Source: Candidatus Berkelbacteria bacterium | Lineage (GTDB): Bacteria; Patescibacteriota; UBA1384; XYA2-FULL-43-10; CAINNR01 | DNA: 43,368 bases | Reading direction: 5' to 3' | NCBI GenBank assembly: GCA_026397205.1 | Contig: JAPLVH010000004.1 | Location: 1 to 43,368 of the forward strand | In this document: positions 11,733 through 25,023 of the stretch, one piece after another | How positions within the stretch are numbered: position 1 is the stretch's first letter | Layout: each line of letters begins with the position of its first letter | The notes under the pieces: model-generated | Told to the model about the DNA's origin: nothing | Database searches by the model: none | The model's input: the letters and a program-made list of their open reading frames with translations, nothing else | Made by a program: the position numbers and the translations under genes

Positions 11733-11770
11733 GTTACAAGATTTTAAATACGTATTTAAAATCTTGTAAC
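11733..11770. repeat. 38-bp perfect palindrome (P1), AATACGTATT centre, upstream of PaaX/Cas2-like gene 1
   Basis: GTTACAAGATTTTAAATACGTATTTAAAATCTTGTAAC; ends 21 nt before the ATG. Confidence 0.95.
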
Positions 11771-11791
11771 AAATTTTAGCACCAACAAAGT

Positions 11792-12364
11792 ATGAAAAAA
11801 AGTACAAAAAGAAAAATTGTAAGAAAATTTGGTGAAATTACAATTGATCTTTTGGAATTAATTGCAAACATTCCGGTTGGGATTATTGGTGGTTTTGTTG
11901 ATCACCACGGTGTTTACAGTTATGTCCAAAGGGACGACAACATTCTCGATAATTTTTTCATTCGGCTTCGTTCCCTACAGGAACGAGGTTATATTGAAAT
12001 AAAAAGTGATGGTAAAAACAAAAGTGTTCGATTGACAAATAAGGGCAAAATAAAGGTTTTAGAAGGTAAAAAATCAAAAATCAGAGATGGAAAATGGCGA
12101 ATTTTATCATTTGACGTACCGCGCGAAAAAAATAAACTTCGCGATCAATTTCGTCGGTCGATCAAAAGAATCGGTTTTAAACAAGTGCAACAAAGTTTAT
12201 GGGTTTCGCCATTTATTAATGCTGATGAGATTGACTTAATAATAGACGAATTAAAAATTCGTGAATATGTTGCTTATTTTATTATTGACAAAACTGACAT
12301 CGAGGAGCATTTGGAAATCATGTTTGAAAAGGAATTTCGAACTCCTAAACCCGAGAGATGGTGA
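11792..12364 (+). CDS. PaaX-like protein: N-terminal helical/winged-helix segment plus C-terminal Cas2-like ferredoxin fold
   Basis: GKWRILSFDVPREKNKLRDQFRRSIKRIGFKQVQQSLWVSPF resembles PaaX central/Cas2-like domains; paralogue at 19123-19686. Confidence 0.7.
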   Translation: MKKSTKRKIVRKFGEITIDLLELIANIPVGIIGGFVDHHGVYSYVQRDDNILDNFFIRLRSLQERGYIEIKSDGKNKSVRLTNKGKIKVLEGKKSKIRDGKWRILSFDVPREKNKLRDQFRRSIKRIGFKQVQQSLWVSPFINADEIDLIIDELKIREYVAYFIIDKTDIEEHLEIMFEKEFRTPKPERW

Positions 12365-12374
12365 TCTGATTGAT

Positions 12375-12430
12375 AAAAAATTTACTTAGGGATTTTCAAT
12401 ACGTATTGAAAATCCCTAAGTAAATTTTTT
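12375..12430. repeat. 56-bp perfect palindrome (P2), AATACGTATT centre, downstream of PaaX/Cas2-like gene 1
   Basis: AAAAAATTTACTTAGGGATTTTCAATACGTATTGAAAATCCCTAAGTAAATTTTTT. Confidence 0.95.
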
Positions 12431-19069: not shown

Positions 19070-19105
19070 ACTGGGATTATTCAATACGTATTGAATATCT
19101 CCAGT
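19070..19105. repeat. 36-bp palindrome with 3 mismatched pairs (P3), AATACGTATT centre, upstream of PaaX/Cas2-like gene 2
   Basis: ACTGGGATTATTCAATACGTATTGAATATCTCCAGT; ends 17 nt before the ATG. Confidence 0.92.
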
Positions 19106-19122
19106 AAAGTTGGGTAAAAAGG

Positions 19123-19686
19123 ATGAAGAAAAAAACGAAACAAAAAATAAAAAGAAAGTTGGGAGAAATTTCGATCAATTTATTGGAGCTGATTGCCAAT
19201 GTTCCAGTCGCGATCGCTGGCGGTTTTTTGGATCCATACTCGGTATATCGAAGTGCGCCGAGAAACAGCAATATTCTGGATGATTTTTTTGATCGGCTTC
19301 GAACATTAAACGAAGGCGGATATATCGAAATTGTTAAAGACGGTAAACGTAAAAGTATTCGCTTAACCAATAAAGGCAAAATTAAATTGCTTGAAGGGAA
19401 AAAATCTGAGCAGACAGATGGTAAATGGCGAATTTTATCATTTGATGTCCCTAGGGCAAAGAATAAGCTTCGCGACCAATTTCGTCGTTCGATCAAGAGA
19501 ATCGGTTTCAAGCAAGTTCAGCAAAGTTTGTGGGTATCACCATTTATAAATGCCGACGAAATTGATTTAATAATCGATGAGCTAAAAATTAGAGAATATG
19601 TTGCGTATTTTATTATCGCTAAAACCGATATTGCCGAGCATTTGGAAGTGATGTTTGCCAATGAATTTCGAAATATCAATTTTTAA
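19123..19686 (+). CDS. PaaX/Cas2-like protein, paralogue of 11792-12364
   Basis: C-terminal half nearly identical in protein sequence to gene 1; N-terminal third more divergent. Confidence 0.7.
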   Translation: MKKKTKQKIKRKLGEISINLLELIANVPVAIAGGFLDPYSVYRSAPRNSNILDDFFDRLRTLNEGGYIEIVKDGKRKSIRLTNKGKIKLLEGKKSEQTDGKWRILSFDVPRAKNKLRDQFRRSIKRIGFKQVQQSLWVSPFINADEIDLIIDELKIREYVAYFIIAKTDIAEHLEVMFANEFRNINF

Positions 19687-19724
19687 TCTTAGGTAATTGT
19701 AACAACTCGTCTTAAGAAAAATTT

Positions 19725-19760
19725 ACTGGAGATATTCAATACGTATTGAATATCTCCAGT
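19725..19760. repeat. 36-bp perfect palindrome (P4), AATACGTATT centre, downstream of PaaX/Cas2-like gene 2
   Basis: ACTGGAGATATTCAATACGTATTGAATATCTCCAGT. Confidence 0.95.
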
Positions 19761-23553: not shown

Positions 23554-24201
23554 ATGTTCATACTAAATTTTTTCAACCAGCCACTTTTCGGGCTCATCGC
23601 AATTATTGGGCTGTTGATTGCAATTACGGTTCATGAATTTGCCCATGCTTGGATGGCGAATCGCCTTGGTGACCCGACGGCAAAATTGATGGGGCGATTG
23701 ACTTTAAATCCGCTGAAACATTTGGATCCGGTCGGAACTTTGTTTTTATTGGTCGCCGGTTTTGGCTGGGGTAAACCGGTGCCGTATAATCCGAGCAATT
23801 TGAAATCCGACGGCGACGAAATCAAAGTTGCTTTGGCCGGCGTTTCTGCAAACTTTATCCTGGCGTTAATTCTCGGCATTCCGCTACGAATTATTACTTT
23901 GATGCACATTCCGACCGACTCAAATATCATTTATCAAATTTTAGAATTTCTACTGGAAATGAATTTGCTTCTGATCGCTTTCAACATCATTCCGATTCCG
24001 CCGCTTGACGGCTCAAAATTAATTTTCCCTTTCATCAGTTTCGAAGCTCGTCAAACTTACGAGCGAATCGGTCCGATCCTGCTCTTCGGACTAATAATTT
24101 TAACCGCCTTTTCTGGCACTTCAATCCTCGTCCAGTTTATGGATCCAATCATCCGCTTTCTCTCCTTCGTCGTCAAAGGAACATATACCTCTATCTTTTA
24201 G
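23554..24201 (+). CDS. Site-2 protease (M50 family) metalloprotease
   Basis: HEFAHAWMANRLGDPTAKLMGRLTLNPLKHLDPVGT; NIIPIPPLDGSK. Confidence 0.92.
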   Translation: MFILNFFNQPLFGLIAIIGLLIAITVHEFAHAWMANRLGDPTAKLMGRLTLNPLKHLDPVGTLFLLVAGFGWGKPVPYNPSNLKSDGDEIKVALAGVSANFILALILGIPLRIITLMHIPTDSNIIYQILEFLLEMNLLLIAFNIIPIPPLDGSKLIFPFISFEARQTYERIGPILLFGLIILTAFSGTSILVQFMDPIIRFLSFVVKGTYTSIF

Positions 24202-24968
24202 GGGACGGTTCTCTTTTGAGCACGCTTTTTGCAACTTTCTCAATGTTTGGTATAATTATTTTATGCCAAGGCAACCACGATTGCTTCTTTCAAAAAGTTT
24301 TTATCACATCATGACTCGTGGAAATAATCGAAACGAGATTTTTAAGTCCCAAACGGACTATTTTTATTACTTGAAACTTCTTCGTCGTTTCAAGGACGAA
24401 CTTGATTTTGATCTCTATCACTACTGCTTGATGCCGAACCATGTCCATCTACTTATCCAAACGAAAAAATCAAATGATTTTTCCTTGTTCATGAAAAAAA
24501 TCAATCTGGCATATTTTCACCACTTTCGTCAGGAATACGGTTGGGTTGGACATTTTTGGCAGGATCGTTTCAAAAGTCAGCCGGTTGGCAAAGATAATTA
24601 TTTTATCCAGTGTGGAAAATATATTGAGCTAAATCCGGTGCGAAAAGGGCTGACAAAAAAGCCGGAAGAGTGGCGTTTTTCAAGCTATAATTTTTATGTT
24701 GATGGCGCTAAAAATAATTTGTTGACCGAAGATTTCTTGTATCGGGATATTGGCAAAAATACTGAGGAGAGAAAGAAAAAATATCGCGGAATGGTTATCA
24801 GTGAAATTGTTTTAGACGATTACAAGAAAAATGTTTGGGGATCTCCAAATCAAAGATACAACGAGAAGCACAAGGAAAATCAGTATTTTACCAGGCATAA
24901 TCGAGATAAAAGTTGATATTGATTTATGCAGTTGTGCGAAAGTCGTATTCAAAAGAGAACCGTCCCCT
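24199..24968. mobile_element. RAYT-type element bounded by perfect 21-bp inverted repeats
   Basis: TAGGGGACGGTTCTCTTTTGA at 24199-24219 and its exact reverse complement at 24948-24968, enclosing a Y1 transposase gene. Confidence 0.9.
24263..24916 (+). CDS. REP-associated tyrosine transposase (Y1_Tnp/RAYT family)
   Basis: YHIMTRGNNRNEIF, YHYCLMPNHVHLLIQT (HxH), HFWQDRFKSQPV, CGKYIELNPVRKGLTKKPEEWRFSSY. Confidence 0.93.
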   Translation: MPRQPRLLLSKSFYHIMTRGNNRNEIFKSQTDYFYYLKLLRRFKDELDFDLYHYCLMPNHVHLLIQTKKSNDFSLFMKKINLAYFHHFRQEYGWVGHFWQDRFKSQPVGKDNYFIQCGKYIELNPVRKGLTKKPEEWRFSSYNFYVDGAKNNLLTEDFLYRDIGKNTEERKKKYRGMVISEIVLDDYKKNVWGSPNQRYNEKHKENQYFTRHNRDKS

Positions 24969-25023
24969 AGAGCGATAGCGGAATCAAAAGAAGTTTTAAT
25001 TTTGAAATATGGTTTGGAAAAGG

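Follow-up and report, generated by a model that had tools for sequence, protein, structure and literature searches.

A Cas2-like gene between two ~38-bp palindromes of its own, with scattered copies of them that vary between relatives: an apparent self-spreading repeat system not previously described

What is a single small gene doing between two long, perfect palindromes? The locus lies in a 43,368-nt contig of a Candidatus Berkelbacteria bacterium (hereafter the window, meaning the whole stretch that was analysed), part of an 821,591-bp genome (G000) which we scanned whole for near-perfect palindromes; its host belongs to the Patescibacteria, a large group of very small bacteria, most of them uncultivated, with very reduced genomes. 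A first-pass annotation had placed a 573-bp gene between perfect palindromes of 38 and 56 bp, both centred on AATACGTATT, and its coordinates are confirmed here (Table 1). We refer to each palindrome as a dyad, and to the gene with its two dyads as a module. The left dyad of module 1 lies 21 nt upstream of the start codon, with a possible -35 box (GTTACA, by consensus scan) at its left end, and the right dyad follows the stop codon by 10 nt and scores, besides, as a bidirectional terminator-like hairpin. We rejected a known RNA element as the identity of the dyads, as an Rfam search of the window returned four tRNAs and nothing else.

Table 1. Features of the two modules in the window.
Feature	Position	Strand	Description
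Module 1 left dyad	11733-11770		perfect, loopless 38-bp palindrome with 19-nt arms, GTTACAAGATTTTAAATAC/GTATTTAAAATCTTGTAAC
Module 1 gene	11792-12364	+	573-bp ORF, 190-aa winged-helix + Cas2-like (PaaX_M) protein P0001
Module 1 right dyad	12375-12430		perfect, loopless 56-bp palindrome with 28-nt arms
Module 2 left dyad	19070-19105		ACTGGGATTATTCAATACGTATTGAATATCTCCAGT; 20-bp core perfect, outer arm with mismatches
Module 2 gene	19123-19686	+	187-aa winged-helix + Cas2-like protein P0002
Module 2 right dyad	19725-19760		perfect 36-bp palindrome

The window holds a second, sister module (19070-19760), with a protein 79% identical to that of module 1; P0001 and P0002 are sisters in the tree, with support of 0.999, and an alignment of the two modules spans dyad to dyad and ends there. 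Two solo dyads, G000:C14:10716-10751 and C24:155-190, are identical to the right dyad of module 2. AATACGTATT is found four times in the window, against 0.03 expected from dinucleotide shuffles, and seven times genome-wide, against none for a reversed-pattern control; all seven sites are centres of longer palindromes, and three of them are distant from any module.

The protein had been described as PaaX/Cas2-like, and profile and structure comparisons bear this out. P0001 matches the Pfam PaaX_M profile (PF20803, the central Cas2-like domain) with E=1.6e-19, and this profile is matched by all 76 aligned members; 49 of the 76 homologues also match the CRISPR Cas2 model PF09827 at E<=0.01, and scores against the Cas2 model TIGR01573 (23.3 and 21.4 bits) fall just below its cut-off of 24.5. 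The match to full-length PaaX (TIGR02277) reaches 31 bits against a cut-off of 264.55 and covers profile positions 44-155 of 279, and the proteins stop after PaaX_M, lacking the PaaX C-terminal domain. An AlphaFold (AF2) model of P0001 (pLDDT 87.4) comprises a winged helix at the N terminus plus a ferredoxin-like domain; its closest PDB fold is E. coli PaaX (8a39, E=7e-4), with Cas2 structures next. The Asp of ILSFDVP, to which the first-pass annotation had drawn attention, is invariant in the 76 aligned homologues, among which D108 and S135 are invariant and P110, R117, Q133 and D99 almost so. No HUH Y1 domain was found in the protein, whose matches are to PaaX_M, Cas2 and winged-helix types only, and no known transposase catalytic domain (DDE, HUH, or serine/tyrosine recombinase) was matched in Pfam, NCBIfam or PHROGs. 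No relatives of the protein were found in viral contigs, phages or plasmids, and a phage or plasmid gene was rejected for that reason.

PaaX is the repressor of the phenylacetate operon and is known to repress its own gene (PMC9493321). The module proteins share its winged helix followed by a Cas2-like central domain, and the span of the dyad equals that of its operator, but they lack its C-terminal effector domain, there are no adjacent paa genes in the window, the dyads stand on both sides of the gene, and there are many copies per genome. With the Cas2/VapD ribonuclease fold they have in common a ferredoxin-like domain, a beta-1 Asp, a following Arg and a Q-x-S-[WF] motif; in contrast, they carry an N-terminal DNA-binding domain, the genome is without Cas1, and the modules have no antitoxin partner. 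Could they be a remnant or relative of CRISPR adaptation, with Cas2 duplicating palindromic repeats? The matches to PF09827 would suit such an origin, as would the resemblance of matched repeats around one insert to repeat-spacer-repeat, but the insert is the gene itself and not foreign spacers, the repeats are found in both direct and inverted order, and Cas1 was found in none of 10 genomes, including G000, in line with the earlier report of neither Cas1 nor a CRISPR array. For lack of Cas1 we rejected CRISPR adaptation, and we give this origin next to no credence.

The architecture is not confined to this genome. Among 98 homologues from Patescibacteria (the first set), palindrome density rises from 0.064/kb elsewhere to 1.35/kb on the upstream side of the gene and 2.21/kb on the downstream side (20-35x), and in the majority of elements the left and right repeats are the same, mostly direct and sometimes inverted. 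In a second set of 77 loci (from Parcubacteria, Moranbacteria, Doudnabacteria, Berkelbacteria, Gottesmanbacteria, other Patescibacteria, or entries named just 'bacterium') the densities are 1.49 upstream and 1.52 downstream versus 0.125 elsewhere, and left and right repeats are matched above the 99% null in 64 of 76 elements; flanking enrichment over both sets is 12- to 35-fold. Thirty control loci (94.9 kb) from eight genomes in which no P0001 match was found contain no such palindromes, where the rate in G000 would predict ~7.7. Every module has a repeat sequence of its own, and protein identity is correlated with half-site identity (Mantel 0.18, 0/1000 permutations). PaaX_M was found in 90 of 287 sampled Patescibacteria genomes, some with ~12 copies. 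The proposal that homologues would be flanked by palindromes sharing a TACGTA centre holds phylum-wide for the palindromes on both sides but not for the centre, which is TACGTA in 4 of 77 strong cases, CGATCG in 44 and CGGCCG in nine; by the refuting condition set in the first-pass annotation, read literally, the TACGTA motif is local, and the architecture is general. Targeted searches of open-licence papers found no account of an association between a Cas2-like gene and flanking palindromes.

Within G000, we counted 67 long near-perfect palindromes (score >=13, loop 0-2), against none in second-order Markov shuffles. The genome carries nine homologous genes, and matched or related dyads are present on both sides in all eight modules with both flanks sequenced, the dyad sequence being specific to each gene or to close sister genes. 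Most of the 67 palindromes group in families, nearly all of them linked to one gene or sister pair; a few are ordinary terminators or lie outside any family. Solo copies of the module dyad families number at least 33, and families have 1-13 solos each; family C is the dyad family of the window modules, family B dyads have the form GTGTGAAAA-NNNN-GCTCCAGC-NNNN-TTTTCACAC, and family A (TCCCTCACTTTGATACGC...) is the most abundant solo family, with 13 copies, for which no cognate gene was found in the G000 assembly. The commonest solo palindrome, TCCCTCACTTTGATACGCTAGCGTATCAAAGTGAGGGA (e.g., C6:22311-22348 and C8:44629-44666), has longer imperfect ends, mostly GRTT...AAYC. Solos sit in intergenic gaps, with 13 of 30 in gaps between convergent genes versus 82 of 500 intergenic gaps (p=0.0008).

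Three other features of G000 involve palindromes or contig ends. A 170-aa gene at G000:C8:2811-3438 (L015 709-1336), whose sequence may resemble GrpB/UPF0157, lies cargo-like between two dyads of the neighbouring module's family. A perfect 80-bp palindrome exactly at a contig end (G000:C15:1-80) could reflect misassembly of a hairpin, and the contig ends of C10, C22 and C25 share a short reading frame (..ILYTFSRLFDEINH..HHFERELATAP) that is probably an unresolved repeat.

A comparable arrangement is known from the REP/RAYT system (TnpA-REP, REPtron), in which a gene is flanked by its own palindrome family, intergenic solos are dispersed, there are several families per genome, and the distribution is patchy (PMC6006769). 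The modules are alike in each of these respects, although their protein has a winged helix and a Cas2-like fold whereas RAYT is an HUH-Y1 nuclease, their dyads are longer, often perfect and almost loopless, a GT[AG]G guide was not noticed, and they appear to duplicate whole, unlike REPtrons, for which transposition as a unit is said not to occur. IS200/IS605 elements are likewise small one-gene elements with palindromic ends, but the module protein is without an HUH domain, and a module has one symmetric dyad at its two ends, in either orientation. The module system works like a REPtron yet stands outside the HUH group, and is kin to PaaX and Cas2 by domain without the defining features of either.

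The architecture, the cognate matching, the dispersal of solos and the presence/absence turnover described below can be read directly from the genome sequences. Our best reading of them, to which we assign a probability of roughly 50%, is a REP/RAYT-like repeat system with a PaaX-type binding protein of Cas2 fold that represses itself via the upstream dyad, and with cognate dyads that spread. A module would be a small REPtron-like unit, with one winged-helix + Cas2-like gene and a cognate ~38-bp dyad on each side. The Cas2-like ferredoxin domain would be the dimer interface, and the two winged helices would touch the dyad's outer arms at 12-19 bp from its centre, as in E. coli PaaX. The upstream dyad overlaps or directly adjoins the promoter, and protein bound there would repress its own gene. 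Modules would duplicate whole and the dyad alone would be copied to other intergenic sites, and because of this copying each protein would have its own solo-dyad family, like RAYT with REP. As the sole component common to all modules, the cognate Cas2-like protein would be the likeliest factor in the spread. From geometry, fold and homology it is fairly likely that the protein binds as a dimer and represses its own gene; its part in driving or directing the spread of dyads is what we infer.

The strongest hint as to binding mode is an analogy in half-site spacing. We pooled 111 dyads by centre, the first three positions being complementary by construction; the pooled dyad is ~38 bp long and combines a complementary core with outer arms at 12-19 nt from the centre. 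Its complementarity peaks in the core and at 14-18 nt, falls almost to background at 7-8 nt and has vanished by ~20 nt. The E. coli PaaX operator is the ~39-bp dyad TGATTC-N27-GAATCA (PMC9493321), and the pooled half-sites sit at the same distance from the centre. Since complementarity is confined to the core and these arms, perfect symmetry is not required in the family; perfection, which the first-pass annotation had treated as a feature, is common in G000, but 85 of the 111 dyads are imperfect. A TATAAT-like (-10-like) box, read by eye, lies ~3-20 nt past many upstream dyads and is followed by the start codon, and TTGACA is present inside several second-set dyads; at L282, L326, L328, L339 and L349 it is in the right arm of the dyad, and therefore an upstream dyad copy could supply the -35 box. 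This layout of dyad, -10 box and TTGACA is as expected for an operator controlling its own gene and, with the PaaX-like geometry, makes the earlier suggestion of an autoregulated DNA-binding module a likely one by analogy.

The same geometry is open to another reading, that of an autorepressor with a regulon and nothing mobile, in which the flanking dyads are the gene's own operators, the solos are target operators or insulators, and genomes differ through gene loss and ordinary turnover of the regulon. A dyad with the size and arm spacing of the EcoPaaX operator, -10-like boxes just past many upstream dyads, membership of the PaaX_M family with its wHTH fold, and partial synteny all agree with it, but matched dyads are also present 3' of the stop codon, the enrichment of solos in convergent gaps is unexpected for operators, identical 36-38-bp solos are hard to reconcile with independent site evolution, and modules occur in bursts within single genomes. 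We consider it a possible explanation, and a doubtful one.

Alternatively, the palindromes could act as folded single strands (lagging-strand ssDNA, or RNA at transcript ends) that are cut or protected by the Cas2-like domain. Their arms do co-vary, with family B 100% paired (15 both-side changes versus 4.7 in shuffles) and family C 96.6% paired, and the placement of solos between convergent genes and the invariance of Asp and Ser in the Cas2-like fold would also accord with such a role. These joint arm changes in perfect G000 dyads point to hairpin selection or to quasi-palindrome correction, which during replication could also yield perfect arms. Most family dyads are imperfect, however, with a non-complementary zone 7-8 nt from the centre, and many have no adjacent terminator T-run. 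Because the numbers of G-T versus A-C mismatches on the sense strand (17 versus 11) reveal no significant bias, there is no RNA signature, and we rejected RNA hairpin selection; ordinary terminators were rejected as well, T-runs being missing at many dyads and many dyads being 5' of genes. A hairpin system seems to us unlikely.

Comparisons between relatives are consistent with the spreading proposed in our best reading. G078 and G112 are a complete same-genus pair of separate species, with ~75% DNA identity. A module at G078:575656 is missing from G112, where the orthologous flanks are 34 bp apart, and at least four palindromes that are not part of an intact module likewise occur in one genome of the pair but not at the orthologous position of the other; several solos, too, are missing from G112. 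At G078:C1:9018-9396 a decayed homologue with two internal stops is followed by a perfect 34-bp dyad, and the palindrome is missing from the corresponding position in G112. G002 has modules at both window loci (beside radA and argS), in the orientation opposite to the window modules, and its same-genus relative G003 has none at either, its single homologue lying elsewhere. Empty sites do exist in relatives, as they do for insertion sequences, and this variation in modules and solo dyads between same-genus genomes fits a mobile unit. To that extent the earlier notion of a mobile unit stands; nuclease activity and palindrome processing are not directly supported. Genome comparisons showed no transposition event or excision product directly, and inspection of the flanks by eye showed no consistent target-site duplication; the G078/G112 junctions are too diverged, and because the DNA of this pair is only ~75% identical, exact insertion junctions are unreadable.

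Some modules are at syntenic places across genera, and four of nine slots are shared, with a chance of ~2e-5 assuming 500 slots. In the tree, shared-locus modules are mostly non-orthologous, with the G002 loci filled from subfamilies other than those of P0001/P0002, which suggests preferred sites or gene conversion; G002 also has a six-copy private clade of modules.

The window contains a single-copy Y1 (HUH) transposase gene (24263-24916), the sole Y1_Tnp of G000, with 35-nt terminal inverted repeats at 24199-24233 and 24935-24969 (TAGGGGACGGTTCTCTTTTGA...). Given its presence here, passive REPs could have been moved by this HUH (Y1/RAYT) enzyme, with Cas2-like genes hitch-hiking. The terminal repeats of the Y1 gene are unrelated to the dyads, however, the dyads track the Cas2-like protein sequence, and Y1_Tnp is absent from G078 and G112, both of which carry modules and the former also solos. 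Movement by the local Y1 transposase was rejected on account of the differing ends and the two module-bearing genomes without Y1, and we think the hitch-hiking explanation highly improbable.

Several points count against our best reading of a REP/RAYT-like repeat system. A regulator with site turnover would give part of the same pattern, syntenic modules across genera behave as stable genes do, the top solo family, A, has no cognate gene, and the Cas2 domain is not known to carry out strand transfer by itself. We can offer only tentatively the further proposal that a Cas2-fold protein alone, without Cas1, HUH or DDE, recognises palindromic ends and copies or moves its own gene and solos, which would be a new kind of mobile or repeat-spreading element.

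Despite their reduced genomes, about one-third of the sampled Patescibacteria keep PaaX_M genes, and the examined modules come with dyads of their own. Should the protein move dyads, this would be an undescribed role for Cas2-fold proteins, with a bearing on the Cas2-Cas1 partnership at palindromic CRISPR repeats; and if it is true that a Cas2-fold protein alone spreads repeats, the modules may be a model of a Cas2-like role before Cas1. If the protein only represses, the modules would still represent a self-proliferating regulator family with portable operators, which would help explain the PaaX- and Cas2-like genes found in these bacteria.
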